From Nematopogon swammerdamellus (taxonomy: Eukaryota; Arthropoda; Insecta; Lepidoptera; Adelidae): a stretch of DNA of 64,000 nt. A model generated the notes under the pieces. The model had not been told where the DNA came from. It ran no database searches and was given only the letters and a program-made list of their open reading frames with translations. The translations under genes and the position numbers were made by a program. Of this stretch, positions 2,990 to 50,978 are shown piece by piece. Where the stretch lies: NCBI GenBank assembly GCA_946902875.1, contig OX336348.1:19121741-19185740 (forward strand), written 5' to 3'. How positions within the stretch are numbered: the stretch's first letter is position 1; the number at the start of each line of letters is the position of its first letter.

Positions 2990-4310
2990 TTTTTTATTGA
3001 CAGCGCTAAATATGGCGCCGAGCCACCCATAAGGTGTCTAACGACGCCCATGGACAGTCGGTCGTATGCGGGGGTTGCGAATGCCATGCCGGCCTGACAG
3101 GTGCCCATTCACGCCCCTCTTGAAGGACCCGAGACTGTACTTGGGGGGAAATATATGGGCAGGGAGAGCGTTCCAGAGTTTACCGGTTCTGTAGAGGAAA
3201 GATCTGCAGAATCGATTGGTACGCATCCGCGGTAAGTCCAGCGTGTAGGGATGCAATCCCTGCCCAGTGCGCGTGGTGCGAAGGTGGAAAGGGGACGGCG
3301 GGATCGAATTAAACAGCTCCTCCGAGCACTCCCCATGGAATAAGCGATAGAACACACTTAGGGAGCCGACATCCCTACGGTGTTGCAGTGGTTCTAGATC
3401 GCAGGACACTTCGGGGTCACCCACTAGTCGCACGGCTCGACGCTGGATTGAGTCCAGAGGCGCAAGCTGGTATTTGGCAGAGCCATCCCACAGATGCGAG
3501 CAGTACTCCAAGCAGGACCTGTTCTGCGATTTATACAGAAGCAGCTTTTAGTCCGGCGTGAAGTACCGTCGCACCTTATTGAGTACGCCCAGCTTTTTAG
3601 AAGCCAGCTTGGCCTTCCCCTCGATATGGCGACGAAAGTTCAGGTCGTGCGACAGTTCGACTCCAAGGACCCCGAGGTGTTCGCTTAATTTAAGCGACGT
3701 GCCTTGGAATGAAGGAGCCGGTGTGAACGCCGCTCTCTTCGCACCGAACGCGCAAACTTGTGTCTTGGAAGCGTTGAACTCGACCAAATTACTACGGACC
3801 CATTCGGAAATAGAGCCGAGTGTGTGTTCGAGCTCAGACACAAGTCTTCGCCTCTTCTCATCCACAACATCCCGACTGGCTGAAGGGTGACTGGTGTAGG
3901 ATCCGTGTGCCGTACTGTCATCTGCATAACAATGTACGTTGCCCAGAGACAGCATATCATTGATATGCAGAAGAAACAGCGTGGGTGACAACACAGATCC
4001 TTGTGGTACACCGGCGTTCACTGACATGGCGTCCGACGAGCAACCGTCCACTAGGACCTGAATGCTACGCCCATGTAGGAAGTCGGCGACCCAGTCACAG
4101 AGGCCAGAAGGAAGTCCGTAAGCCGGCAATTTACTCAAGAGCGACTTGTGCCAAACCCGGTCAAATGCCTGGGCAATATCAAGGCCAATTGCCAAGGATT
4201 CACCATGACCTTCAAGCGATTCCCCCCAAAGGTGAGTGACGTACGCTAGGAAATCACCAGCAGATCGTTTTGGCCGGAAGCCGTATTGCCGATCGCCGCC
4301 TTTGCCCACT
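2990..4310 (-). pseudogene. Non-LTR retrotransposon, 5'-truncated reverse transcriptase and C-terminal region (CR1/Jockey-like)
   Basis: The minus-strand frame from 4,309 encodes the second half of a reverse transcriptase. Visible motifs are QYGFRPKRS, a catalytic-aspartate motif LDIAQAFDRVWH, GVPQGSVLSP and the active site YADDS. The same frame continues after one in-frame TAA (3,548-3,550) into a C-terminal region with EYCSHLWDG, which ends at 3,038. The endonuclease and the start of the RT are absent, so the copy is truncated near 4,310. The 3' end has a T run on the plus strand at 2,987-2,997. In the family this enzyme drives target-primed reverse transcription; this copy is dead because of the truncation and stop. 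Fragments of the same family lie at 28,005-28,155, 36,706-36,935 and 38,991-39,475. The clade assignment is tentative. Confidence 0.85.
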
Positions 4311-11985: not shown

Positions 11986-11997
11986 TATAAATATATA
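11986..11997 (+). promoter_or_regulatory. TATA-like motif upstream of the NACHT gene
   Basis: TATAAATATATA lies 192 bp before the ATG at 12,189. There is no good initiator at the usual 25-30 bp downstream. It is an alternative to the GC-rich promoter candidate at 9.9 kb. Confidence 0.3.
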
Positions 11998-12188: not shown

Positions 12189-15100
12189 ATGGAATCAAGT
12201 GAACAAACTGAACATAAAAATAAACTAAATAAACAAGCACATGATACAGAATGGAAAAAATTGAAAGAGTACATAAAAAATGGCGACGAAGACGGTGTTG
12301 AAATGATTCTGACAGAAAACGCAGCCTTCAACACAGCAGACAACATGAGCAGAGTTTTACACATAGCGGTCGCAGCGAACAGAGAAAACATTGTCACTCT
12401 AGCTATCAACAAGGGGGCAGACATCAACGCCGTAGACGAGAATGGAGACTCTCCGCTTCATATTGCTGTTAGAAAAATACATTGTGCTGGATTAGTGCAA
12501 CATTTTATATCATTGAATGCAAAACGTAACATTCGCAATGAAAATAATGAAACACCTTTGGATATTATAAACGAAGCATTGCGTATTGAATCAAAGCCTA
12601 TTAGAAAAGAAAAAATTATCTCGATGAAAGCTCTGTTCATAGAAGACACAGAAGAAAAATATAAGAAAAATTATCGCCAATTGTCAAAATCTACATCGAA
12701 TTCCGAATTAATGTTTGAATGTTCTAAAGGTTTAAAAGTGAATTTGACCGGAGCTATGTTTCAAACCAAGCTTTTAATGCTTTTCGCCAAGCGTGCTATG
12801 GACAGAGGTTATAAATTCAGATTAGCGACCGAAATAGAATCTGCGGGAAAATTTGACGACGTAGTTTTGAGATATGAAGAGAACGAGACAACAGTATACA
12901 GATTTTTACAGGCGAAGCATAGAGACAACCCTTCCAGTACCATTAGGGAATTTGATCTTTTCTCTTCGGATACGAAAGGAGATTTTAATATTGTTAAGTA
13001 TTTCCTATCGTTTGTTAAAATAGTTAACAGCAAAACATATAACGACGGTGAATTAAAAGATTTTATAATTTGTACAAATACCGACCTAGAAACAAAATCA
13101 AAGGAATATTTCACTTGTAAAGACTTATTGGGAGATGCAATTTTGTATATAAATACGTGTGCTAAGAAATATAAATTAAAATTCGAAATTGGTCAATATA
13201 TAATTGCGCAAATTAAGAATATAGCTTTGGATGCCATAAGTCCAAAAGCAATTGAAGCTATGAAGAATAACAGAAATGAATTGCAGAAACAAGTTCAATT
13301 AGTAAATGAAATAAATACATTACAAAAACAAAAAAATACTACATATAGTTACTGTAACAAATTATGGCCTTTTGAAAAAATTAAGAAACAGGGCTCAAAC
13401 GCATTTGATAATTACTTGAGCTTGTTGTCGACATACAAAAAGAAAGTTAAACACGCCGTCGATGGAAAAGAAAAAACCGCGATACAAACAATTCATGATA
13501 TCTTCCCGATCGATGGTGAAACGCCAAGTCACACTGATGATTTGAAAGAATTAAAAGAAGAAGCTTGCAGCATAATCCACGAGCATAGTCAAAGGGTGAA
13601 GAACCAAAAAGCACTACTTATCGATTGTTGTATGGACGAGAGTGAAGTTGTAGTTAGGATTGATGAATTTTTAAGTAAGTTTTTCATAGTGGCCAATTAC
13701 GCCGGAATTGATGATTTAAACAACCAAATCAGCCATGAACTTGGCGGCGAATTCCAATTGCTAGATGCAACCCTTCTAAATGATTCCTTTGAAAAGGATA
13801 TGTTCAATTGGGTGAGAAGTTATGAGGGTAATAAAAGTACATACTTTTTGGGAAAAGACAGCAAAGAAATATTCAATATCTTGACATGTAAACTGAACAC
13901 TTTAATGGTTAGCGGGGTCAGCAAATCCCATGTCGACAAAATTTGTAAGCACAACATCTTCTTTAAACACGATCAAGTCAAGGTGATTGATTTCATTCTG
14001 AGTGATAACAACATTCTCCACGTGACCACAGAACATCCTCGCTTGAGTGCTCTAAAGATTATTCAGACGTTAGAAAGAAATGAAACGTTCAAAAGACTAG
14101 ATAGCGTTATATTTACTAGCGTTGAAACATTTCTGCTCACAGAAATGTACAAACGCATGATAAATGCATTCTCCTCTGACTCCAGTCACCATATTCTAGT
14201 AATAGAATGCCAACATGTATCGTCAAGTCGAAATGTACATTTCGACTACAATCACTTATCCTCTGCTATAAATACCATCCTAAACAAAAATTCAAATAAG
14301 AAATTAATCCTTATAGCGCGTAGCAAACACTTTGTAGTTGAAAAATTCAAGACCAAAAATTACTCTCATGCGTTTGACAAAATTAAGTTTAAAGATCTGA
14401 AAGAGGAATCACGAAAGGCAATTCTCAATAAAGATGTAACTTTTCAAGAAAACCGAGGAACATCTGAAAATAAAATACAATTAAAAGATTTGATTAATGA
14501 AGATTCAGCGGACGACATCATCGACGAGGAAATGTTATGGTGGCTTATAGAAAACAACAACATTAGAGTGGGCGATGGAAGAGCTTTTTATTCCAGAGGA
14601 TACAATGAAAAATATAACATTAAAAGATCATTACAACGTCAAATAGTCGATTTAAAAATCCAATCCGATAGGTTATCATGTTTAATTTTCATAACGGGTA
14701 CGAAAAATAATTTAGAAATGCTTTATTCTTCCCGGAGACTTGGCAAAGCGAATTGTGAATGGTGGCACAACGAAATGCCCTTTCTAAGTCAAGAAATGCT
14801 TGATTGTACTTCGCCCAAAGTTAAGATTATTTTGTCACCAAATAAAGACAAAAATATAATCCACAGACATAGGTTTGAAAATATTTGTCGAAAGTTTCCC
14901 TACGTTCAGTGGCTAGAGTATGCAGGAAGTGGATTATTTTTGTGGGGAGATTTCAAATATTCGACTAAGTATTTAGATGAACATGATCATCCAGTAACAT
15001 ATGACATGAAGTTGCTCAATATTAATATACGGGAAGCGTCATCATACAGACGAAGAGATAACATGTTTATCCCTGAAGCGCTTGAGGAAAAAATAATAAT

Positions 15101-18100
15101 TGTAGCGAACGATCCTGGAGAAGGCAAGTCTACCATGCTGACTGGTTTGTCGTACGATTTGAAGAAAAGATTTCCGCATTCGTGGATCGTTCGGATAAAT
15201 TTAACAGACCATGCCGTCGACGGTGATCCGTCAACTGGATTGAAAAATATTGAAATCGAAGATAACGATAAAGAAAAGGGGATAGACATTGTCGCAAAAA
15301 TGATAGTTCGCGGCGACCCAGATGATGTTCAGGTGAAGTTTCAAAGAGAAACAATTAAGGCTACCTTGGACGGAAGAGCCAAAATAAGACTTATAATAAT
15401 GTTTGATGGCTTTGATGAAATTTCTCCCAACTACAAAAGTAAGACTTGTATCCTACTAAGAGTAATTAAAGATACTAACGTTAGTCAACTCTGGGTTACG
15501 ACTCGAGTACATCTGAAAACTTATTTGGAGAATGCGCTTCAAACGCCGGCTTATATGATGATTGCCCTAACTCGTGAGGAGCAAGCGAACTATTTAAACC
15601 ATTACTGGAAGTGGAATTTGAAGTTTTACAATGATGATCCGTGTAATGAAACAACTACAACTGGGATACTAGACTTGCTTAAGAATTTCCAAGAGTCAAT
15701 TTCCCAATGTATCGAAGAACGAAGAAACGAACCATACTTTTTACATAATAGAAACAATAGAAAAACTAATCTTGAAGAGCTTCTTTTCAAAATAAATTCT
15801 ATAATAAAATATTCTGATGCGACGCTTTCCACATTACAGACAAAGGTGTACGGGTTAAACTTCTCGACTTATGCAGAAATTGTACTGAATGTTGTGTCAG
15901 AATTATATTTCAGTAATCACAAAGGTGCGGATATTGAACAATATAGGGATAGTTTCACAGCTGTTCCGCTAAATCTCAGTATGATAGCCGAGAACATGTT
16001 CAAACGTAAATTACAAATTCCTAAGAGTACTGGACTGTACAGTCTATACAGCCAGTTTGTGCTGGACAAGTTCGAAATATATCAACGAAAAAATGTGAGC
16101 ATTAACGACAGCAGCATCGTTGGTAAAGAGCAACGTAAAAGAGAGATTCCAACACTTCAAAGAGTACATCGTGAGTTGGCCTTGAAGTTGTTATGCCCCG
16201 ACTTCTACAAGAAGAACATTATGCCAGAAACGAGCGAGTTGGCTCAGTACACAGATGAAGAATGGACGAGAATCGGACTCGTGCGACACGAGTTAGTTCT
16301 TGAGTTCGTCCATCGCACATACGCTGAATACTTTTTGAGTGAATATTTATTTTGGCATTTTAACAATGAAAATGATCAAAATCAATTATTGTATAAAATA
16401 TGTGTCAGTAATGACTATCGTGTAGTGAGACTCTTTTTAAATACATTATTACTATCTGATGATAACGCGAATACAATAAAGGGAATGAGGATATTGCAGC
16501 ACAATTACCGACACGGTTCCGTAAATCCGCTCTTCGTAGCAGTGCGGGAAAGGATTTTAGGTTTCATGAAGTTCGTTCTTAATATTTTTGGAGTTGACTG
16601 TAACATATTATTTGAGAACGGTATATCAATCTTAAGCAATATACATGACGCTGAAACAATGAACACACTTTTAGACTATTCAGAAAAAAATACGGAACTG
16701 TTCAACCAGCTACTCTTTTCGAAAAGCTCACCTGCGCTACACTTGACACGTAATAAGGAAGTAGCCCAGACTCTGCTGGAACGGACCAGCAAGAATCCCA
16801 GTTTATTTAGAAAAGTTATACTTTGCATCGATGACGAAGGCAGGTCAGTGCTGCATCTTCAGAATGATGCAGTAACCATAAAAACTATACTAGAGATGGT
16901 GCAGTACGATGAAGAACTGCTCGAGGACTTGGTTAATCTCAGAGACAAAGAAGGAAAAACAGCCTTACATACGGCGGAAACGAAAGAAAATATTGAAGTA
17001 GCCCATGAACTCTTGAAATGCATAAAAAATCCAGATTTGTATAGACAAATTACACAAAGCGTTGACGCGCACGGTAAGTTCGAATTATGTAAACATGTAA
17101 TGCTAAACACAGTATTAGAAATGGTACAATCTGAAGAGTTATTTCAAGATTTACTACTTGACAAGGACAATGAAAAAAGTACTATGATACACGTGGAGAT
17201 GTTGCAGAGACAGAAAAATATAGACAAATACATCTCAGAATTTATGAGCAAAAATAACATTTTGCTGGAACAAATTGTACAAAGTGTTGATGAGAACGGC
17301 GAGTTCGCATTAAGTTATATAACTAGTGTAGAGATGTATAAAAGTATTCTAACATTTGTGCAATGCGAAAAAAACCTGTATAAACGTTTGCTGCTTATAA
17401 GGGACAACGAAGGAGAAACAGTGCTGCGCACAGTGCGTAAGAAATATGTAGCGCAAGCGCTTCTACTGGAACGTATACGCACAGTGAAGAACACAATTTC
17501 AATGAAAGAAGTGGTCCGATTTGCCGATGAACTCGGTAAATCTGCATTGCGTAACTTAACTAATGCCGAAATTATAAAAACTATACTAGAGATTGTGAAT
17601 TCTGAACACGTTTTGGATAAATTGTTGTTTCTTAGTGACAAGAACGAACAAACAGTGCTACACAAAGTTATACAATACGAAACAGTAGCAGATGCGCTGT
17701 TAGAAACCACCAAATCCAATGTCAATATATTTAGAAAAATTATACATAGCTTCGATAAGAATGGCAAGTCCGTCTTACATTACGCATCTAAAGAAGAAAT
17801 TGTAAAAACAATATTAGAAATGACAAAAAGTAACGACGACTTGTTTAAAGAATTACTACGTTTTAGGTACAATGAAGACAATACTGCGTTACATGTGGCG
17901 GTGTGCGCTAAAAATGAAGAAGCCGTCGAAAATATTTTGAAATATATCACGAACGATTCCAATTGGTTCAAACAAATATTACTGAGCGTTGACGCGCACG
18001 GTAAATCAGCATTACATAATGTAACAAATGGCAAAATATTAAAAATAATACTAGAACATGTGCAATCACATGTAGACCTGTTAGCTATACGAAATACAAA

Positions 18101-19532
18101 AGTAGCGCACCAACTCTTGAAATACTGTAAAAATAATGAAAATGTGTTTAAACAAATTATGGTAAGCGTAGATAAGCAAGGCAAGTCCGCCTTGTGTTAC
18201 GTTACCAATTTTGAAATTTTAATGAGCATGGTAGAAATAATGCAAACTCATGATGGTATGTTTGAACATTTGATGATTCTCAAGGACATTCGGGGAAGAA
18301 CAGCACTACATACAGCGATTTACAATAATCAAACTGGAGTAGCTAATATTTTGTTGCAAACTATCAAAAATAATTCAGAATTATTTAAAAAAATTATACT
18401 TAGCGTTGATGTGCAATGTAAATCTATATTACATGACGCTGATAATGAGGAACTTGTAAAAATAATACTAGAATACGTGCGGTCTGATGAAGAATTGTTT
18501 GAGAAGTTGTTGCTTCTCAAAGATCAAGAAGGGAGAACAGCGCTACACACAGCTACGAGCGCCGGAACACACGTAGTACAAGCGCTGTTGAAAAGTATGA
18601 ACGGGAAACACGATTTAAAAAATAAAATAATACTTATTGTAGATACAAAAAGCAGATCTGTATTACATTACGCGAGCGATGAGGAGCTTGTAGAAATAAT
18701 ACTAGACTACGTGCGGTCTGATAAAGTCCTGTTTGAGAATTTGTTGCTTCTCAAAGATCAAGAAGGGAGAACAGCGCTACATACAGCGATGAAAGCAGGA
18801 ATACGCGTAGTAATTGCGTTGTTGGAAAGTATGAACGAAAAAAGCGATTTATTAAAAAAAATAATATTAATGGTAGATAATCAACGCAGATCTATATTAC
18901 ATTATACAAATATCGATAATGGGGGCACGATACAGACCACATGCTCTGTGATACAGACAGTACTTAATATGATACAATGTGACAAATTGTTAGAGAAATT
19001 GTTGCTACTGAGGAACATTAGTGGAAGAGCAGGGTTACATGTAGCGATGTCTTTACCACCGATATGTCAACAGGCCGTGTTTGTGCGTGCCAAAAATAAT
19101 CCGGAGTTGTTAAAAAATATTCTACTTTGTGCCGATGAGTGTGGAAAATGCGCTTTGCATTATGTTCGTTCAGGGACAGCTATAAAAACAATACTAGATA
19201 TGGTGAAACACGATGAAGGTCTGTTAGAGCAAGTGTTGCTTCTCAAGGACAACAAGGGAAGAACCGCGTTACATGCGGCGATGCGTAAAAAAGAAAGATA
19301 CGAGATATTAAAATGCATTAAGGATTGCATTAAGGACAATCAAGATTTATTTAAAGAAATTATACTTAGTGTTGATATGAACGGAAAATCTCCTTTGCAT
19401 TATTTAAATATCGTCGTTATACAAAAAGTACTAGATCTGTTGAAACACGATGAAGGTCTTTTAGAGCAAGTGTTACTTCTCAAGGACAACAAGGGAAGAA
19501 CACCGCTAGTATTGGCAAACCACAATTGTTAG
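12189..19532 (+). CDS. Giant ankyrin / PD-(D/E)XK nuclease-like / NACHT (STAND) NTPase / ankyrin-dyad protein
   Basis: One open frame of 2,447 codons with no intron. The ATG is in good context (A at -3, G at +4) and is preceded by an in-frame stop at 12,162. Residues 20-150 hold about four ankyrin repeats (DENGDSPLHIAV at 83-94). Residues 180-310 resemble DUF4297/Cap4-type PD-(D/E)XK nucleases: ATEIE (213-217), KFDD (221-224) and FLQAKH (239-244), then a TN motif at 296-297. Candidate catalytic residues are D223 or D224, Q241 and K243. Residues 310-960 have no domain I can name. NACHT: Walker A DPGEGKST (975-982), Walker B IIMFDGFDE (1069-1077), sensor TTR (1104-1106), PLNLSMIAENMF (1260-1271) and VHRTYAEYF (1374-1382). 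Residues from about 1,505 to the end are ankyrin-like dyads of about 80 residues. There is no signal peptide or membrane segment, so it is probably intracellular. By analogy with bacterial Avs and animal NLRs, ligand binding by the repeats would trigger NTP-driven assembly and nuclease action; that role is inference. It could be of bacterial origin. Confidence 0.9.
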   Translation: MESSEQTEHKNKLNKQAHDTEWKKLKEYIKNGDEDGVEMILTENAAFNTADNMSRVLHIAVAANRENIVTLAINKGADINAVDENGDSPLHIAVRKIHCAGLVQHFISLNAKRNIRNENNETPLDIINEALRIESKPIRKEKIISMKALFIEDTEEKYKKNYRQLSKSTSNSELMFECSKGLKVNLTGAMFQTKLLMLFAKRAMDRGYKFRLATEIESAGKFDDVVLRYEENETTVYRFLQAKHRDNPSSTIREFDLFSSDTKGDFNIVKYFLSFVKIVNSKTYNDGELKDFIICTNTDLETKSKEYFTCKDLLGDAILYINTCAKKYKLKFEIGQYIIAQIKNIALDAISPKAIEAMKNNRNELQKQVQLVNEINTLQKQKNTTYSYCNKLWPFEKIKKQGSNAFDNYLSLLSTYKKKVKHAVDGKEKTAIQTIHDIFPIDGETPSHTDDLKELKEEACSIIHEHSQRVKNQKALLIDCCMDESEVVVRIDEFLSKFFIVANYAGIDDLNNQISHELGGEFQLLDATLLNDSFEKDMFNWVRSYEGNKSTYFLGKDSKEIFNILTCKLNTLMVSGVSKSHVDKICKHNIFFKHDQVKVIDFILSDNNILHVTTEHPRLSALKIIQTLERNETFKRLDSVIFTSVETFLLTEMYKRMINAFSSDSSHHILVIECQHVSSSRNVHFDYNHLSSAINTILNKNSNKKLILIARSKHFVVEKFKTKNYSHAFDKIKFKDLKEESRKAILNKDVTFQENRGTSENKIQLKDLINEDSADDIIDEEMLWWLIENNNIRVGDGRAFYSRGYNEKYNIKRSLQRQIVDLKIQSDRLSCLIFITGTKNNLEMLYSSRRLGKANCEWWHNEMPFLSQEMLDCTSPKVKIILSPNKDKNIIHRHRFENICRKFPYVQWLEYAGSGLFLWGDFKYSTKYLDEHDHPVTYDMKLLNINIREASSYRRRDNMFIPEALEEKIIIVANDPGEGKSTMLTGLSYDLKKRFPHSWIVRINLTDHAVDGDPSTGLKNIEIEDNDKEKGIDIVAKMIVRGDPDDVQVKFQRETIKATLDGRAKIRLIIMFDGFDEISPNYKSKTCILLRVIKDTNVSQLWVTTRVHLKTYLENALQTPAYMMIALTREEQANYLNHYWKWNLKFYNDDPCNETTTTGILDLLKNFQESISQCIEERRNEPYFLHNRNNRKTNLEELLFKINSIIKYSDATLSTLQTKVYGLNFSTYAEIVLNVVSELYFSNHKGADIEQYRDSFTAVPLNLSMIAENMFKRKLQIPKSTGLYSLYSQFVLDKFEIYQRKNVSINDSSIVGKEQRKREIPTLQRVHRELALKLLCPDFYKKNIMPETSELAQYTDEEWTRIGLVRHELVLEFVHRTYAEYFLSEYLFWHFNNENDQNQLLYKICVSNDYRVVRLFLNTLLLSDDNANTIKGMRILQHNYRHGSVNPLFVAVRERILGFMKFVLNIFGVDCNILFENGISILSNIHDAETMNTLLDYSEKNTELFNQLLFSKSSPALHLTRNKEVAQTLLERTSKNPSLFRKVILCIDDEGRSVLHLQNDAVTIKTILEMVQYDEELLEDLVNLRDKEGKTALHTAETKENIEVAHELLKCIKNPDLYRQITQSVDAHGKFELCKHVMLNTVLEMVQSEELFQDLLLDKDNEKSTMIHVEMLQRQKNIDKYISEFMSKNNILLEQIVQSVDENGEFALSYITSVEMYKSILTFVQCEKNLYKRLLLIRDNEGETVLRTVRKKYVAQALLLERIRTVKNTISMKEVVRFADELGKSALRNLTNAEIIKTILEIVNSEHVLDKLLFLSDKNEQTVLHKVIQYETVADALLETTKSNVNIFRKIIHSFDKNGKSVLHYASKEEIVKTILEMTKSNDDLFKELLRFRYNEDNTALHVAVCAKNEEAVENILKYITNDSNWFKQILLSVDAHGKSALHNVTNGKILKIILEHVQSHVDLLAIRNTKVAHQLLKYCKNNENVFKQIMVSVDKQGKSALCYVTNFEILMSMVEIMQTHDGMFEHLMILKDIRGRTALHTAIYNNQTGVANILLQTIKNNSELFKKIILSVDVQCKSILHDADNEELVKIILEYVRSDEELFEKLLLLKDQEGRTALHTATSAGTHVVQALLKSMNGKHDLKNKIILIVDTKSRSVLHYASDEELVEIILDYVRSDKVLFENLLLLKDQEGRTALHTAMKAGIRVVIALLESMNEKSDLLKKIILMVDNQRRSILHYTNIDNGGTIQTTCSVIQTVLNMIQCDKLLEKLLLLRNISGRAGLHVAMSLPPICQQAVFVRAKNNPELLKNILLCADECGKCALHYVRSGTAIKTILDMVKHDEGLLEQVLLLKDNKGRTALHAAMRKKERYEILKCIKDCIKDNQDLFKEIILSVDMNGKSPLHYLNIVVIQKVLDLLKHDEGLLEQVLLLKDNKGRTPLVLANHNC
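16700..19520 (+). repeat. Tandem ankyrin-dyad coding repeats, about 12 units
   Basis: Two alternating motifs recur. One is of the D-x-x-GRTALHTA type and one of the D-x-x-GKSxLHYA type, each followed by long amphipathic helices; together they form dyads of about 80 residues (234-246 bp). One half-unit is missing near 18,080. Some neighbouring units are nearly identical in DNA (18,440-18,545 versus 18,685-18,790, and 19,205-19,262 versus 19,440-19,497), which points to recent unit duplication. Confidence 0.85.
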
Positions 19533-19724: not shown

Positions 19725-19736
19725 AATAAAAATAAA
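19725..19736 (+). terminator. Polyadenylation signals of the NACHT gene
   Basis: Two abutting AATAAA hexamers lie about 190 bp after the stop codon, followed by T-rich sequence. This suggests a 3' UTR of roughly 0.2 kb. Confidence 0.6.
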
Positions 19737-20563: not shown

Positions 20564-21490
20564 TATTGCGCGCCTTTTGCGCGCCGCTAGTTTTAATTCA
20601 TTATCTAATTCTACCAATTTTCTACCAAAACACTCAATACTGGTATCATTTCTTGGTTAAACTTACTAATAACTATTCTCAGACACGACTGGGCACACAA
20701 TAACCTTCACACAGAAAATAAATAATGAAGTTGACAGAAAATAAAATGTCACTTTTGGCAGCTGACATTTCCACTGACCCTGGAATAGACAAAGATTGTA
20801 CCCGTAAACGTAGTTCGGTATTTGATAGTTCGTTTCAATGCGCTTATTTCGGTATGCGATATGTAAGACGAAATTGTACAGTTTTGGTCAGAAAAAAAAA
20901 AATTTCGAGTGTGTTTTGTTTTGCCTGGAGTTCAAAAAATCGGTCTGTGCTTCTAAATAAGTGAATCCTGAAGAGTTTGGTATCACTGAACGCTTAATTT
21001 CAGTACAAACAAGACTGAATAACGAGTATTGATGGATCGATCGATTGAGGCGGGATATTCGAATTTGTGCGGGAGCGCGCGCGCCAAAATTTTGCGTTTT
21101 TGAGCGCCGCTAAAAGGGCCTGGGAGCCAAGGGGAGTAGTACTATTTTGAGTCAAACGGACTCAAAGGGTTAATAATCCTTACATACTTAAATACTATTT
21201 TACTATTTATTACATACGTATATATTCATATTAATTCTTCTTATGCTTCTTGGTGAAGTTCTTCATAGTTAGGTATCTGGTGAACTCCTCGATTCACGAC
21301 AGATATAATAGTCTGTAACTCGTTGAAGGGACAGGTTGGAGACACTCCACTTTGGAAGTCCTCCTCCTCGGCGAGATTGCAGGTGGCTTCTCTTCGATCT
21401 GATGATTCATCGGACAACTGATACAGCCCCAGCAACCTCGTCCTCAGCAGAGCTCATAGGCAACGGCTTCACCGAAACCCCTCCGAAGCC
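20564..21490. other. Unassigned, possibly transposon remnant
   Basis: Contains GC-rich patches (GCGCGCCTTTTGCGCGCC near 20,567 and GGGAGCGCGCGCGCC near 21,071) similar to the preceding palindromes. Short frames (for example 79 codons at 20,725) have no recognisable similarity. Confidence 0.35.
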
Positions 21491-22645
21491 ATGAATCTTC
21501 AGTCTCCGCAGCACACAGAAGCCTTCACCTTCAGTCTCAGCAGCCGGCAGAAGCCTTCATCTTCAGTCTCAGCAGCTCACAGAAGCTTGCATCTTCAGTC
21601 TCAGCAGCCCACAGAAGCCTTCATCTTCAGTCTCAGCAGCTCACAGAAGCTTGCATCTTCAGTCTCAGCAGCCCACAGAAGCCTTCATCTTCAGTCTCAG
21701 CAGCTCACAGAAGCTTGCATCTTCAGTCTCAGCAGCCCACAGAAGCCTTCATCTTCAGTCTCAGCAGCTCACAGAAGCTTGCATCTTCAGTCTCAGCAGC
21801 TCACAGAAGCTTGCATCTTCAGTCTCCGCAGCACACAGAAGCCTTCACCTTCAGTCTCAGCAGCCGGCAGAAGCCTTCATCTTCAGTCTCAGCAGCTCAC
21901 AGAAGCTTGCATCTTCAGTCTCAGCAGCCCACAGAAGCCTTCATCTTCAGTCTCAGCAGCTCACAGAAGCTTGCATCTTCAGTCTCAGCAGCCCACAGAA
22001 GCCTTCATCTTCAGCCTCGTAGCCCACAGAAGCCTTTATCTTCAGTCTCCGCAGCCCACAGAAGCCTTCACCTTCAGTCTCCGCAGCCCACAGTAGCTTT
22101 CATCTTCAGTCTCAGCAGCCCACAGAAGCCTTCATCATCAGTCTCAGTAGCCCACAGAAGCCTTCATCTTCAGTCTCAGTAGCCCACAGAAGCCTTCATC
22201 TTCAGTCTCAGCAGCCCACAGTAGCTTTCATCTTCAGTCTCAGCAGCCCACAGAAGCCTTCATCATCAGTCTCAGTAGCCCACAGAAGCCTTCATCTTCA
22301 GTCTCCGCAGCCCACAGTAGCTTTCATCTTCAGTCTCAGCAGCCCACAGAAGCCTTCATCATCAGTCTCAGTAGCCCACAGAAGCCTTCATCATCAGTCT
22401 CAGTAGCCCACAGAAGCCTTCATCTTCAGTCTCCGCAGCCCACAGTAGCTTTCATCTTCAGTCTCAGCAGCCCACAGAAGCCTTCATCATCAGTCTCAGT
22501 AGCCCACAGAAGCCTTCATCTTCAGTCTCAGCAGCCCACACAGAAGCCTTCATCTTCAGCCTCTCAGCCCACAGAAGCCTTTATCTTTAGTCTCCGCAGC
22601 CCACAGAAGCCTTTATCTTCAGTCTCCGCAGCCCACAGTAGGCTA
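21491..22645. repeat. 32-bp minisatellite, about 36 copies
   Basis: The unit is of the type CAGCCCACAGAAGCCTTCAT + CTTCAGTCTCAG. Many units alternate between a CCCACAGAAGCC form and a TCACAGAAGCTTG form, giving a 64-bp higher-order period. Three overlapping plus-strand frames (Gln/Ser-rich) arise because 32 is not a multiple of three; none is a credible gene. Confidence 0.9.
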
Positions 22646-29909: not shown

Positions 29910-31172
29910 ATGGCATCGTATCGCATTCCATATGGGTTACTGCGCAAAGACGAGTTGCAATATGAGGTAAATATAAGAGGCGGTTCTCCTGACAGTACCG
30001 TGCAAGCCTTAAGACGACAAATAGTGGAACTTTCAAAAACTTTCCCCGAGACAGAACTCGACGATACGGACCTGACATTTACAGAGGAACACGCGACAAT
30101 ATTGCAAAAAATAAAAGATCTGGAAGAAACGGACACAAAAACCCCTAGATTCGGTGCACTCTACAACCATCTACACCATAGAATACGGCGTCTATCAGCC
30201 ACAGGCTCAAAAGAAAATACTTGGCTGGCAGACCTTAAGAAAAATTTCCAAAAACTATCACTACTTCTAATGGCAGACCCTAGCGGTGCCTCTAACACTG
30301 AACAATCATTAGAGGACACACACACAAATGCTGTCCAAGTACAGTGCACGCATAACATCCACGCTGACTCACTGAAACTTAAATTCGACGGCAACACTTG
30401 CGTCAGAGCTTTCCTAGAACGCGTCAGTGAGGTTAGACTATCCAGAGGCCTCTCAAAGGAGAAACTTTTCCAGATATCAGCGGATATGTTCACAGGACCA
30501 GCACTGTACTGGTACCGTGGCAACAGGCTAACACTAAAAGATTGGGACGAACTAGAAAACCTCTTAAAGGACGAATTTGGGGTTACCGACTATGAATATC
30601 GGCAAACAAATGAAATTAGGTCCAGATCTCAAGGTAAAGAAGAAACAATAGTGGTCTACTTAGCGATAATGAACTGTATGTTCAACAGACTTACAAAACA
30701 GCTGTCGGAGGCTGACAAATTAGAAATACTACTACACAACATTCGCCCTGAGTACTCATTAATGCTTGCACTGACTAATATAAACACCATACAACAATTA
30801 AAAGAAGTGTGTAGGAAGATAGAAGAAAACAAAGCCAGGTCCGACATGTTCCTTGAACCACCGACCCCTACCAACAAAACTGTAGCGTCGGACCTCGCGT
30901 ACCAGCCTAGAAAGCCTGACTACAAACATAAAGTTTCTGCGGTAGCTACAAGCTCAAACAATAAGCCTGGGGGTACTAATAAAAATTATAAACCAAAAAG
31001 TGGAACAGATTATTGTTTCAGATGTAAAATGTCCAACCATAGCATGCGTCAATGCAATGCGCCTAGAGAACTAAAATGCTTCAGGTGTGGCAAGATATGT
31101 CATAAGTTAGCTGACTGCCCAGACTGCAAGAAAAACTTCCCTGAAAAATATTCTAATAACTCAAAAAACTAA
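29910..31172 (+). CDS. Gag polyprotein of the LTR retrotransposon
   Basis: A 420-residue capsid/nucleocapsid precursor. Residues 150-310 form a retrotransposon gag region (ALYWYRGNRLTLKDWDEL around 199-216). Two zinc knuckles of the CX2CX4HX4C form lie near the C-terminus (C369/C372/H377/C382 and C390/C393/H398/C403), which bind the element's RNA in the particle. It starts at an ATG just after TCACC and stops at TAA 31,170-31,172, immediately after a slippery heptamer. No frameshift or stop is visible, so it may be functional. Confidence 0.95.
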   Translation: MASYRIPYGLLRKDELQYEVNIRGGSPDSTVQALRRQIVELSKTFPETELDDTDLTFTEEHATILQKIKDLEETDTKTPRFGALYNHLHHRIRRLSATGSKENTWLADLKKNFQKLSLLLMADPSGASNTEQSLEDTHTNAVQVQCTHNIHADSLKLKFDGNTCVRAFLERVSEVRLSRGLSKEKLFQISADMFTGPALYWYRGNRLTLKDWDELENLLKDEFGVTDYEYRQTNEIRSRSQGKEETIVVYLAIMNCMFNRLTKQLSEADKLEILLHNIRPEYSLMLALTNINTIQQLKEVCRKIEENKARSDMFLEPPTPTNKTVASDLAYQPRKPDYKHKVSAVATSSNNKPGGTNKNYKPKSGTDYCFRCKMSNHSMRQCNAPRELKCFRCGKICHKLADCPDCKKNFPEKYSNNSKN

Positions 31173-34100
31173 AAACGGTTCATTCTAAGATGACCAAGCC
31201 GGGTGAACCATGCTCAAAATTTGGTCAAACTAGTAAAACAGAGTGGAACGAATGGTTACATTCCATTTCAAGTTTTTTTAAATCTTATAAAGTAACTTCT
31301 ATCTTATTCACAGAGACAGTCGACAAAGAGAGACTATATATAAACATTGATGTAAATAACACTACCCTATGCGGACTACTAGACTCAGGCGCGGCCATAT
31401 CAATACTAGGAGATAACGCTCACCAAAAATTAATAGAAATAGGCTTCACAATCACAAAGACGATGGAAATCTCAGTAAGAACGGCTAATGGTAGCATTAT
31501 TACTTGCGACAAGTGTATGTTCATCCCGGTAAAATTTAATAACCTATACAAATCCATTCAATTCTTTGTAATTCCAGAAATAACTGACAACTTGGTCCTT
31601 GGTATCGACTTTTGGAAATCATTCGATTTATTACCAAAAATTCTGAAAGATGCTCTTAAAGTACAAGCTAACGAACAACGAATCTCATTAATTAGCAACG
31701 GAAAAAGTAAAGGAAATTTGTCTCATTTTGACCATCTCAGTAAAGAAGAACAAACTCTAGCGAACAATATCATAGAGCAGTACGATACAATCTCAGCTGA
31801 AAAGGTAGGACTAGGCCGCACAACGCTTTGCGAACACGTCATAGAAACCACAGGTCAACCAATAAAACAACGATCCTATAGGCTTAGTCCACTTAAAACT
31901 AAAGCCTTGTATAAAGAACTTGATAGAATGTTACAGCTAGATGTCGTCGAGCCTAGTGAAAGTCCTTGGAACTCCCCCGTACTTTTAACCGAAAAGAAAG
32001 ACAACACTTTGAGATTTTGCCTAGACAGTAGGAAACTAAACTCTGTCACTAAAAAAGACTCGTACGCATTACCTAACATTTCACAGATCTTAGATAGTTT
32101 GAGAGACGCTAAATACCTTTCAAGCATCGACTTAAGCTCGGCATTCTGGCAAATTCCTATTGCAAAGCCAGATAGAGAAAAAACTGCATTCTCGGTAGCG
32201 AATAGAGGTATATTCCACTTTAAAGTTGTACCTTTTGGCCTAACGGGAGCTCCGGCAAGACAACAAAGACTGATGGATCAACTGTTCGGCCCTGAATTTG
32301 ATAGTAAAGTATTCTGTTACCTCGATGACATTATTATAGTATCAAACAACTTTAACGAGCATTTAGACTTGTTACTAAGAGTAAAAGAAAAACTAAAATC
32401 AGCAAGTCTCACCATTAACCGTTCCAAATGTAAATTCTTTAGGGAACAATTAAACTACTTAGGATACTTAGTAGATGAATATGGTTTAAGACCTGATCCT
32501 GAGAAAGTGCGTGCTATCCTAGAATATCCTGTCCCAAAGAATAGTAAGGATGTCAAAAGATTCCTAGGAACTATGAGTTATCATAGACGCTTCATACCTA
32601 ATTTATCTACAATAGCAACACCACTTAATAAACTTACCTCCACCAAGAAAGGTACTCCCCCGTTCTCTTGGTCCGATGCGGCAGAATCGGCTTTCCAAGA
32701 ACTAAAGTCAACACTGGCTAGCGCACCTATCCTTACATGCCCAGACTACGCTAAACCGTTTGAAGTTCATACAGATGCGAGCGGATTTGGTATTGGCGCT
32801 ATGCTAAGTCAAACAATCGACGGCATAGAAAGACCGATCGCTTATATGAGTCGCTCCCTTAATAAACACGAAAAAAACTACTCAGCTACCGAAAGGGAAG
32901 CTCTTAGCGTCTTAACATCCCTAGAACATTGGAGATGCTATATTGAAAATGGACAAAAGACTATAGTATATACGGATCATTCCAGCCTAAAATGGTTTCT
33001 AAGCTTAGAAAACCCTACTGGTAGACTAGCAAGATGGGGTGTACGCTTGTCCCCTTTTAATCTTGAAATCGTACATAGAAAAGGAACCTTGAATATAGTA
33101 CCGGATGCCCTCTCACGTTCGGTACCTATCTCCTTGATCGCTACAACATTCACAGATCCTTGGTACATAAACATTGTGGATGGATGTAAAAATTCTCCTC
33201 AAAGCTTTCCAACCTATAGAATAGAAGAAGGGAAATTATATAAATACACAAAAAGTAAATATAGTCTAAGTAACGAATTTGACTGGAAAATAGTTATTCC
33301 AGCAGATCTCAGAAAAAACATTATCTTAGAAAATCACTGTACTCCAACTGCAGGACACCTTGGAATATTCAAAACGCACAAGCGTGTTGCACTGACATAC
33401 TATTGGCCAGGAATGTACCTAGACATAGCTAAATTTGTAACTAATTGTGATACCTGCCAGGCTTACAAACATTCCAGACGAGCACCACCAGGACTCATGG
33501 GAGATCCTAAAGTATGTTCAAGACCATGGCAAGCTATTAGTATAGATTTAGTAGGTCCACTCCCACAATCTCGAAATGGTCATTGTCACTTATTAGTAAT
33601 AACTTGCTGCTTTAGTAAATATTGCTTGTTCTTCCCCTTAAAGAGAGCCGTGTCACCAGCAATAATTAAGATACTGGAAAATCAAGTATTTTTAGTCCAT
33701 GGTGTCCCGAAAACTATAATACTAGATAATGGATCTCAGTTTACTTCCAAAGAAATGGAAAAGTTCTTTAAACTCTATAAAATACCTCAAATCCACTATA
33801 CCGCTCGATATACCCCACAAGTAAACTTGGTCGAACGCTACAATCAGACAATCGAAACAGCCATTTCAACCTTTGTAAATGAAGATCATAGAACTTGGGA
33901 TGTTAATCTTAATAAAATAATGTTTGCTATCAATAACTCAGTTAGTGAAGTGACGGGCTACACTCCTTCATTTCTTGTCTTCGGTAGAGAAATAATCATA
34001 GACGGCTCCCTATACCCGTCAAGTAAACAGGATAATTGTACTGATCTAGTGCATGCACCTAGGAATATGTATGCAGAAAATACAGGCCACTTAGCTTGTA

Positions 34101-34393
34101 TCTTTGATAAAGTACAGAAAAAACTATATCATGCACATTGCAAAAGTAAGCAAAGGTATGACACTAGACGCACGGAAATTGAATTTGATGTAGGTGATAC
34201 GGTGTGGAAGAAAACTTACAAACTGAGTGATGCATCTAAATATTTCACTAACAAACTTGCTCCTAAATATGAAAAGTGTAAAATCGTTGAAAAGGTTTCA
34301 CCACTAATTTATGAGTTGGCGGACAACAAAGGTAAACAAATACCTGGCCGGTGGCACATAAAAGATCTTAAACCCTCGGGTACCACAACCTAA
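31160..34393 (+). CDS. Pol polyprotein: protease, reverse transcriptase, RNase H, integrase
   Basis: The frame is -1 relative to gag. Numbering here starts at the ATG at 31,190 (1,067 residues). The aspartic protease has LLDSGAA (D65). Reverse transcriptase has the YLDD active site at 377-380. RNase H carries HTDASG (D529). The integrase zinc-binding region begins with H716 and ends in a CDTC motif. The catalytic triad D786, D846, E882 has the exact D-x59-D-x35-E spacing. Together these process Gag-Pol, copy the RNA and insert the DNA. No stop or frameshift is seen. Translation is probably by frameshifting as a Gag-Pol fusion, so the ATG may not be a real start. I saw no chromodomain. Confidence 0.95.
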   Translation, partial: LKKLKTVHSKMTKPGEPCSKFGQTSKTEWNEWLHSISSFFKSYKVTSILFTETVDKERLYINIDVNNTTLCGLLDSGAAISILGDNAHQKLIEIGFTITKTMEISVRTANGSIITCDKCMFIPVKFNNLYKSIQFFVIPEITDNLVLGIDFWKSFDLLPKILKDALKVQANEQRISLISNGKSKGNLSHFDHLSKEEQTLANNIIEQYDTISAEKVGLGRTTLCEHVIETTGQPIKQRSYRLSPLKTKALYKELDRMLQLDVVEPSESPWNSPVLLTEKKDNTLRFCLDSRKLNSVTKKDSYALPNISQILDSLRDAKYLSSIDLSSAFWQIPIAKPDREKTAFSVANRGIFHFKVVPFGLTGAPARQQRLMDQLFGPEFDSKVFCYLDDIIIVSNNFNEHLDLLLRVKEKLKSASLTINRSKCKFFREQLNYLGYLVDEYGLRPDPEKVRAILEYPVPKNSKDVKRFLGTMSYHRRFIPNLSTIATPLNKLTSTKKGTPPFSWSDAAESAFQELKSTLASAPILTCPDYAKPFEVHTDASGFGIGAMLSQTIDGIERPIAYMSRSLNKHEKNYSATEREALSVLTSLEHWRCYIENGQKTIVYTDHSSLKWFLSLENPTGRLARWGVRLSPFNLEIVHRKGTLNIVPDALSRSVPISLIATTFTDPWYINIVDGCKNSPQSFPTYRIEEGKLYKYTKSKYSLSNEFDWKIVIPADLRKNIILENHCTPTAGHLGIFKTHKRVALTYYWPGMYLDIAKFVTNCDTCQAYKHSRRAPPGLMGDPKVCSRPWQAISIDLVGPLPQSRNGHCHLLVITCCFSKYCLFFPLKRAVSPAIIKILENQVFLVHGVPKTIILDNGSQFTSKEMEKFFKLYKIPQIHYTARYTPQVNLVERYNQTIETAISTFVNEDHRTWDVNLNKIMFAINNSVSEVTGYTPSFLVFGREIIIDGSLYPSSKQDNCTDLVHAPRNMYAENTGHLACIFDKVQKKLYHAHCKSKQRYDTRRTEIEFDVGDTVWKKTYKLSDASKYFTNKLAPKYEKCKIVEKVSPLIYELADNKGKQIPGRWHIKDLKPSGTTT
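31163..31209 (+). promoter_or_regulatory. Programmed -1 ribosomal frameshift signal between gag and pol
   Basis: Slippery heptamer A AAA AAC at 31,163-31,169, in the correct gag phase, is followed at once by the gag TAA. After a 7-nt spacer comes a stem of nine pairs (31,177-31,185 with 31,201-31,209, two of them G-U) and a 15-nt loop. Slipping by -1 enters the pol frame, which is open from 31,160. The nominal pol ATG at 31,190 lies in the loop. Confidence 0.8.
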
Positions 34394-48776: not shown

Positions 48777-50978
48777 CTACGGAGGATCATTCAGAAGCGC
48801 TAACAATGTTCTCTTGTATTTGTAAGTAGACATGGAGAACATGTCCAGGCCGAGCTCTTTACACAACTCATTATGCTCTCGTGAAATGCTCGCTATAGGA
48901 TTGAAATGACCTAGGGATGTTTTATACCTACGTACGTACAATGGGTTGAAATTACATAAGCGCACTGATGGCCGCGGAATCTGGAAGGTAATACGCTGCA
49001 ATATATCAGGACAATCTATTTGATAATTCAAAGTTTTATATAATAGCATTTGGCCTGCTAGTTTCCGTCTAGAAGTTAGGGAAGAGAATTTGTACTTTCT
49101 TAACCTGTCGTCATAAGTTTTTAGTGTTGACCGTAGGTTGTCTTTCCATGTTAGGTGACGAAGGAATCGTTTTTGTACTCGTTCAATTCTCTGCGTGTGA
49201 ACATCGAAATAAGGACTCCAGACAATAGAGCAGTATTCGAGCGTACTACGTACCAAGGAGTTGAATAATGTTATCTTAGTCTGAGCGTGCAAGAAAGACC
49301 TGGAATTCCTATATATGAATCCGAGCATTTTATTTGATTTTTTTAACTATGTTGTCGTAATGAAATTTGAAAGATAATTTACTGTCTAATGTTACACCGA
49401 GGTCTCTAATTTGCTGCACTTTTTCAAGTGTCACTCCTTGGATGCAGTAGTTAGTACACAGTGGTTTCTTTTTCCTCGTAAATGTGATTTGTTTACATTT
49501 GTTTAAGTTCAGAGCAAGTCTGTTGCCTACACACCAACTTGCAATATGATTAATATCCTCTTGTAGTTTTATAGAATCTGTCACATTGCTAATAATATGA
49601 TAAATTTTCAGATCGTCTGCGAACATAAGGAACTTGCAGTGTTTAATTACGCTATGGAGGTCGTTAACAAAAGCCAAAAAAAGGATAGGACCCAAGTGGG
49701 ATCCCTGGGGAACACCGGAAGTGACGTCCACGTGTCGGGAGCCGTAACCACAGGCCACTACCTTCTGTTTTCTGCCAGATAAATAAGAAGAGAACCAGTC
49801 CAATATGTTTCCATGTATACCGTATGAATCTAATTTATTTAACAATAGACAGTGATCGACTTTGTCAAATGCCTTGCTTAGGTCAGTGTTTATTGCATCA
49901 ACTTGTTTAGTGTCATCAAGTGCCTGAGAAAGATCATCGACGAGGCAAGTGAGATTGGTCAACGTTGACATTTTGCTACGGAAGCCATGTTGCTGTGGTA
50001 TTAGAACTTGTTTAAGATGTTGTGTTAATATAGGACATACTACTGCCTCGAAAACCTTGGAGAAAATTGATAATAATGATATGGGTCTATAATTCTGCAC
50101 ATCACAGGGGTCGCCACCTTTAGGTATTGGTATCACATTTGCCTGTTTCCATGCAGAGGGGAAAACACCGCTGGATATGGATTTGTTGAAAATCGCTGTA
50201 AGTGGGTAGGTAAGGCTGTCTGCACATCGAAAAACAAATAATGATGGAATCCCATCAGGCCCGGCTCCCTTGTCGGGGTCTAGACTCTTTAGTTTGCATT
50301 TAATTAATTTAAAATTGACTCTGAGGTTACTGAGCACCGTTGTACATTTACTTTCCAAGTTAGAAACATCACAAGAGGTGCTGGATAAGTTCGTGGTTTC
50401 ATAAACAGATGAGAAATGATCGGCAAATAATTCACAAATAAGTTCTGGCGTGTTAGCCCTTTTGTCACGCAGAAACATGTCACTAGGAATAGTACTCTTA
50501 CCCTTACGTTTTGACTTTATGTACGACCAAAACATTTTAATATTACTTTTATTGTGTAATAGCGAGTTCTCTATCATTCCTAAATAATCAGAGTGACACT
50601 TTTTAATTAATTTGTGGCAACGATTTCTTAATGTGTCAAAGCTAATTTTATCAAGTGGATTGCTGAATGTTTTATATTTCTTGCGATATTTGTCCTTCTC
50701 CTTAATTAGCCCGATGAGATCGCTTGAGTACCATGTAGGATACTGGCTTCGTGATTGTTTTACTAGGGGAACGTGGGTTTTAATGACACTGCGTAGATTT
50801 GAATAAAATATATCGACCATATTGTCCACCGAAGAACCTTCACTAAAGAGTGATTTCCAGTCTATACAATCCAGTGCTTTTGTGATGAGCTCATAATTTG
50901 CTTTACGAAAGTTAAATATGTTCGCTGAATTGTCTCTTAGAAACTTAATTTGAGATTGGTCGTAGATAATTTCTATTG
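48777..50978 (-). pseudogene. Non-LTR retrotransposon, 5'-truncated and frameshifted (CR1/Jockey-like)
   Basis: The minus frame 50,829-49,330 encodes a reverse transcriptase: IPIPKGGDP, NYRPISLLS, QQHGFRS, DLSKAFDKVDH, SGVPQGSHLGP and the active site FADD. The C-terminal part (SLVRSTLEYCSIVW, 49,328-48,777) is in another frame. The break falls at a run of seven T on the plus strand (49,338-49,344), consistent with a one-base length change in a homopolymer. Related-looking sequence upstream reaches about 50,978, but the endonuclease domain is absent. The family differs from the element at 3-4.3 kb. Confidence 0.9.

Follow-up and report, generated by a model that had tools for sequence, protein, structure and literature searches.

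A window of 64,000 nucleotides (the whole stretch of DNA that was analysed) from Nematopogon swammerdamellus (Lepidoptera, Adelidae), corresponding to positions 19,121,741 to 19,185,740 of the forward strand of contig OX336348.1 in assembly GCA_946902875.1, contains one open frame of 2,447 codons which is regarded, with a probability of roughly 0.58, as an animal gene for an intracellular sensor resembling the NOD-like receptors (NLRs), with a built-in nuclease as its effector. Alignments and structure models support a chain of ankyrin repeats, a nuclease, a helical and alpha/beta linker, a NACHT module with winged-helix domain (WHD) and helical domain 2 (HD2), and long ankyrin-type repeats. 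Sequence comparison likewise supports the conservation of catalytic and Walker residues, the existence of a gene family in this genome and the presence of full-length relatives in Wolbachia. A role in immunity and a DNase activity are proposed by analogy with known systems. To our knowledge, insects are usually described as being without NLR-type receptors. Given the chain of nuclease and NLR switch, the mostly intact family and the full-length Wolbachia relatives, the gene may be an unrecognised intracellular immune sensor.

The frame is uninterrupted from position 12189 to 19532 on the forward strand and translates into 2,447 residues, whereas stop-free frames in 200 shuffled versions of the window reached 229 codons at most. 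Both the frame and all motifs quoted in the initial annotation are present: KFDD (residues 221-224), FLQAKH (239-244), DPGEGKST (975-982), IIMFDGFDE (1069-1077), WVTTRV, which holds the quoted TTR (1102-1107), and VHRTYAEYF (1374-1382). As far as an open frame can support it, the gene has a single exon, as had been proposed, and so do 13 more long members of the family in the N. swammerdamellus genome. The parts of the gene, with the evidence for each in parentheses, are as follows.

12189..19532, + strand: whole open frame, 2,447 codons (stop-free frame; shuffles at most 229 codons)
12273..12608, + strand: N-terminal ankyrin repeats, residues 29-140 (best stretch of Pfam Ank_2 29-111; PDB ankyrin matches 22-130)
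12720..13193, + strand: predicted PD-(D/E)XK nuclease domain of the Cap4/LmuA kind, residues 178-335 (alignment, conservation, fold model, fold matches, profile comparison)
12831..12833, + strand: E215, conserved acidic residue right behind strand 1, in 85/94 fragments (alignment, model)
12849..12860, + strand: KFDD motif, D224 invariant (94/94; alignment of fragments)
12903..12920, + strand: FLQAKH motif, Q241 and K243 invariant (94/94; alignment of fragments)
13491..14480, + strand: helical linker and alpha/beta region, residues 435-764, conserved along with the nuclease (alignment, model)
15066..16508, + strand: predicted NACHT with helical, winged-helix and HD2 parts, residues 960-1440 (fold model, fold matches)
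15111..15134, + strand: Walker A, DPGEGKST (alignment)
15393..15419, + strand: Walker B, IIMFDGFDE (alignment)
15492..15509, + strand: sensor 1, WVTTRV (alignment)
16308..16334, + strand: winged-helix motif, VHRTYAEYF (alignment)
16686..19529, + strand: C-terminal repeat region, degenerate ankyrin-type, about residues 1500-2447 (Pfam ankyrin stretches, tandem repeat)
18422-18904, + strand: tandem unit of 234 bases (78 codons), part of the C-terminal repeat region (tandem repeat)

Scans of the whole protein against Pfam and PADLOC gave no nuclease family and no nuclease match, respectively; detection of the nuclease and of the NACHT part needed alignments of relatives and structure prediction. 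The conservation alignment comprised 95 fragments (matches of fewer than 60 residues were left out), or 94 after exclusion of a partial copy without the core (L015), and D224, Q241 and K243 were kept in all 94, from animals and bacteria alike. The predicted core showed strands and helices in the order of an alpha-beta-beta-beta-alpha-beta core, as in the restriction-endonuclease fold, with a predicted local distance difference test (pLDDT) score of 86-96. Cap4, LmuA and Avs3 (8dgc) are among the profiles and folds closest to it. A pooled Cap4/LmuA profile matched the nuclease alignment with a probability of 90% (E 1.4e-6) and the two profiles separately with 20% and 27%; 30 column shuffles of the alignment, run against the separate profiles, did not exceed 0.3%. 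Regarding single models at E ≤1, PDLC02007 SAVED_PDDEXK of PADLOC matched 4 of 26 family members, PDLC03849 LmuA matched three and PF14130 (Cap4_nuclease / DUF4297) none; a PF14130 scan of 289 genomes of the class yielded two matches, one of them above the cut-off. Residues 178-335, approximately, are thus predicted to be a PD-(D/E)XK nuclease domain, and the initial annotation, which had placed a nuclease of this kind ahead of NACHT and repeats, is borne out by conservation, fold model and fold matches; of the findings that it had named as refuting it, neither the lack of a restriction-endonuclease fold nor a lack of D/Q/K conservation was observed. When the nuclease model was compared with viral structures, a single match, to an Mrr-like protein of Orpheovirus, had an E-value below 0.001 (3e-4). 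Close nuclease sequences retrieved no relative from viral_contigs, distant ones being beyond the reach of that scan.

In the predicted structure, residues 960-1440 (approximately) fold as the NACHT-WHD-HD2 of NOD2, NLRP3 and NLRC4; animal NLRs were the first fold matches of the NACHT part, and the Walker A and B columns are invariant in the alignment of relatives. The region is therefore predicted to be an NLR-type module of NACHT, helical domain 1 (HD1), WHD and HD2. The Pfam NACHT model stayed below its cut-off on the window protein (E 0.04, 14.2 bits vs 26.7) and was passed by six of the seven relatives scanned (P0009, P0013, P0019, P0104, P0057 and P0103, with P0061 failing). Ankyrin repeats were strong in Pfam at both ends of the protein, and the same scan contained no leucine-rich repeats, no tetratricopeptide repeat (TPR) family and no SAVED domain. 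The alpha/beta region of the linker was not matched to a known fold; judging by its strand order, it could be a degenerate second P-loop domain.

All named animals with the nuclease are arthropods, including Diabrotica, Sitodiplosis, Planococcus, Daphnia, Hermetia, Hypothenemus, Temnothorax, Gryllus, Anoplophora, Leptinotarsa, Brassicogethes, Periplaneta, a millipede, moths and mosquitoes. The bacterial relatives expected by the initial annotation were right in kind, being Rickettsiales endosymbionts, and comprise Candidatus Mesenet, a metagenome-assembled genome (MAG) of Midichloriaceae and a Rickettsiales MAG in addition to Wolbachia. Two Wolbachia proteins on contigs of more than 1.5 Mb (P0061 and P0103) combine nuclease, linker, NACHT, ankyrin repeats and a latrotoxin C-terminal domain (Latrotoxin_C), and a third, which is named partial and lies on a short Wolbachia contig (P0057), has the domain order of the window protein, N-terminal ankyrin repeats included. 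In many other Rickettsiales copies, the nuclease is seen together with a short conserved adapter in frames of lesser length, within the loci of about 3.6 kb that were covered. The N-terminal effector is exchanged among relatives: in P0009 a class 3 lipase above the Pfam cut-off takes the place of the nuclease on the same NACHT-ankyrin part, P0013 and P0104 have class 3 lipase matches just below the cut-off on that part, and in a protein from the Wolbachia of Brachyopa (P0089) the nuclease precedes NB-ARC and ankyrin repeats. This exchange supports a modular receptor.

The nuclease tree comprised 114 rows, with 17 near-duplicates and rows without most of the domain left out; two copies from the N. 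swammerdamellus genome (L019 and L026) were not among them. The 15 rows from this genome formed one clade (98/100). Starred branches force at least three label changes for Rickettsiales and eight for named arthropods, in a tree with weak deep nodes, an unsettled bootstrap and two long branches that meet (Aedes and Culex). In the NACHT tree, obtained by a quick search from 75 hand-chosen rows, the N. swammerdamellus copies again formed a single clade (99), whose partners were Diabrotica, Sitodiplosis and unnamed rows (100), and two Wolbachia rows stood beside Planococcus. A single Rickettsiales NACHT clade was rejected with a p-value of 0.003 in the approximately unbiased test (p-AU; 43 named rows, 32 unnamed ones left out), for a group chosen after the larger tree had been seen and with starred branches that alone do not force more than one change. 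This rejection suggests more than one transfer, and the trees as a whole suggest several between arthropods and Rickettsiales, each of which may have gone either way. An acquisition from bacteria, as proposed in the initial annotation, is thus possible, as one of two directions.

The same data bear on an unlikely alternative, according to which the gene is a domesticated or exchanged symbiont-manipulation gene, that is, a host-acting effector of Rickettsiales or phage WO whose arthropod copies serve in germline or symbiont conflict as toxin, antidote or decoy. It draws on the full-length Wolbachia relatives, two of them with the latrotoxin domain, and on the concentration of the nuclease in the order of Mesenet (Rickettsiales), where it was found in 35 of 343 genomes at E ≤0.001 (some being fragments or weak), against one of 398 genomes in a phylum-wide sample, that one being the centre genome itself. 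A prophage WO NACHT protein with ankyrin repeats and a latrotoxin C-terminal domain had also been described earlier, in passages of PMC5062602. On the other hand, the arthropod sequences with names come from a wide range of animals (Daphnia, a millipede, a cockroach, beetles, flies and moths), and the group that unites the N. swammerdamellus copies with Diabrotica, Sitodiplosis and unnamed rows contains no named bacterium.

At least 62 matches were obtained in a protein search of the genome (19 of 117 candidates were scored), and grouping by hand gave about 17 family loci on contigs C7, C16, C20, C22, C23 and C32. Fourteen of these loci are long stop-free frames of 1,857-4,054 residues and three are broken. 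A stretch of about 320 kb on C16 holds the window gene plus four more, and one of about 160 kb on C32 holds five. Of the 20 frames extracted, 17 had the nuclease pattern and three, all partial pieces, lacked it; the Walker A pattern, also present in 17, was missing from two pieces and a full-length copy on C22. That copy (L018) keeps the nuclease motif in a full-length frame without the strict Walker A pattern. The longest frame, of 4,054 residues at C16:5249885-5261965 (L015, L016), strings together two nuclease and two NACHT modules, and a protein of Anoplophora (P0014) likewise has two nuclease and two linker-NACHT modules; another single frame, at C20:1766562-1774610 (L011), has 3,719 residues.

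In near-identical copies the likeness runs past the frame ends into the flanks. Retroposition, which the initial annotation had considered, was set aside and is not favoured, because the flanks are shared as in DNA-level duplications and the family's genes usually have one frame. As regards carriage by a mobile element, no shared element ends were noticed within about 1-2 kb of flank per side. The closest relative of the window gene is a sister copy at C16:19218071-19233384 (L009, L010), which is 95% identical and is split at the end of the winged-helix motif (about window position 16334) by about 7 kb of repeat-rich sequence, where overlapping matches raised the suspicion of a target-site duplication. 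This copy (C16:19.218-19.233 Mb) has additional tandem repeats of a unit that corresponds to residues 2036-2122, so that sensor length differs between near-identical genes. The synonymous divergence (dS) is uneven along the same pairs, which indicates exchange between copies: jumps between segments were seen for the window gene vs L011, L012, L013, L014 and L016, most clearly for L013, with a dS of 0.07 in the ankyrin part and 1.29 in NACHT. This pattern suggests gene conversion or mosaic copies in the family.

Ratios of nonsynonymous to synonymous divergence (dN/dS) between copies were mostly 0.1-0.5, consistent with purifying selection on most of the family. Within the divergent group on C7, C22, C23 and C32, the nuclease ratio was 0.07-0.22 in 11 of 15 pairs, at a nuclease dS of 1.06-2.36, and undefined in the other four, in which dS was saturated; the nuclease was the lowest or tied lowest segment in eight of these 11. 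For the window gene and its sister copy the ratio was 0.5-1.1 in linker, middle part and NACHT, with few changes, in keeping with the sister copy being broken. A catalytically silent scaffold, in which the nuclease fold is kept for binding nucleic acid or holding the receptor together and signalling proceeds through partners, is quite improbable. The activity is predicted here from sequence and model, and E215 is not universal, as this explanation would allow; yet D224, Q241 and K243 are kept throughout animals and bacteria, and in most of those pairs the nuclease is the segment with the lowest or a tied lowest ratio. It is very improbable that the genes are mostly functionless relics, ancient insertions open by chance or through gene conversion: three loci are broken, one by the insertion at the winged-helix motif, but 14 long frames are still open and the low nuclease ratios of the divergent group were reached at high dS.

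The contig that holds the gene measures 22.4 Mb, in an assembly of 699 Mb and 39 contigs. A genome-wide count gave about 24,000 exact matches, overlaps included, to six TTAGG units, and none to the pattern read backwards; contig size and richness in TTAGG repeats indicate an arthropod chromosome. Bacterial contamination was ruled out on account of this contig and of kin on six contigs of 13-27 Mb. Many TTAGG arrays are internal, e.g., C1:4477616-4477750 and C1:8372368-8372557. The G+C content is 35.6% in the gene and 40.5% in the window, and several 2-kb steps elsewhere in the window are equally low (31-36%), so that the AT-rich codons cited in the initial annotation are weak evidence of transfer, and base composition was dropped as such. 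Seven long frames in the neighbourhood were scanned: four are pieces of retroelements, and the rest had no or doubtful matches. A minisatellite-like array at window positions 21200-22600 translates into a repeated short peptide, and its Pfam matches are probably spurious. Further features of the window are listed below.

11986..11991, + strand: TATAAA, possible core promoter upstream (sequence match only)
19725..19736, + strand: two adjoining AATAAA past the stop, possible poly(A) signal (sequence match only)
29910-34393, + strand: gag and pol frames of a long terminal repeat (LTR) retroelement (Pfam scan)
3548-4309, - strand: reverse transcriptase piece (Pfam scan)
49330-50829, - strand: reverse transcriptase piece (Pfam scan)

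By analogy with Avs and NLR proteins, the C-terminal ankyrin array of the proposed sensor would bind a microbial or danger ligand, exchange of ADP for ATP at the NACHT would open the protein and drive oligomerisation, and the nuclease domains thus brought together would cleave DNA, with loss of foreign DNA or death of the infected cell as the outcome. More than one passage of the genes between arthropods and their Rickettsiales symbionts is probable; in this lineage, duplication at the DNA level would then have raised the copy number, with sequence exchanged among the copies. A broader proposal, for which the odds are slightly less than even, is an arthropod class of intracellular NLR-like immune receptors with a DNase effector of the Cap4/LmuA kind (a lipase in relatives), repeatedly traded with Wolbachia and other Rickettsiales and, in the N. 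swammerdamellus genome, expanded with change in sensor length and exchange between copies; one and the same receptor would serve the host as a defence and the symbiont as a weapon or decoy. If true, insects would gain a direct, self-contained DNA-cutting sensor akin to bacterial ones, the passage of defence modules between symbionts and hosts would become testable, and a function would be suggested for the N-terminal part of some giant Wolbachia NACHT-ankyrin proteins.

That the gene belongs to the bacterial Avs family proper and passed from there into an animal, as the label used in the initial annotation would imply, is hardly credible: the order of nuclease, STAND NTPase and repeat sensor is common to both and Avs3 (8dgc) is among the nuclease fold matches, but the window protein matches no PADLOC family at E ≤1, has an ankyrin sensor and resembles animal NLRs first in its NACHT part. 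PADLOC holds models of Avs, proteins in which a nuclease or other effector precedes the STAND NTPase and a TPR-type C-terminal sensor follows, activated by phage terminase or portal. With the Cap4 (CBASS) and LmuA (Lamassu) nucleases of the DUF4297 superfamily the nuclease shares its fold and the order of the D and QxK residues, whereas the family is below the reach of PF14130, is fused to NACHT and has no SAVED domain found by Pfam. Animal NLRs such as NOD2, NLRP3 and NLRC4 have the NACHT-WHD-HD2 fold in common with the window protein; their usual layout is a CARD or PYD effector with a leucine-rich repeat sensor, in place of which the window protein has a nuclease and ankyrin repeats. Fungal NLR-like proteins also have NACHT, some with ankyrin repeats and exchangeable N-terminal effectors; the family described here differs in its Cap4-like nuclease and in its range of arthropods and Rickettsiales.

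The closest layout in print is that of prophage WO. According to passages of Bordenstein and Bordenstein (2016, PMC5062602), a prophage WO NACHT had animal homologues only by BLASTP and sits among more diverse arthropod sequences, with ankyrin repeats and a latrotoxin C-terminal domain downstream. NACHT is thus common to Wolbachia and arthropods there, with ankyrin repeats behind it, and P0061 and P0103, which end in Latrotoxin_C, resemble the published proteins in layout. The word nuclease does not occur in the text of PMC5062602, and no report of a nuclease-NACHT protein from arthropods or Wolbachia was found in the open-licence papers searched. Restriction-endonuclease-fold domains are treated as effectors of bacterial conflict systems in general in passages of PMC8195603. 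The sharing of NACHT with phage WO, as those passages of the 2016 paper have it, is therefore already in print, and new here are the N-terminal Cap4-like nuclease, the number of family members in a single genome and the presence of the complete chain in Wolbachia.
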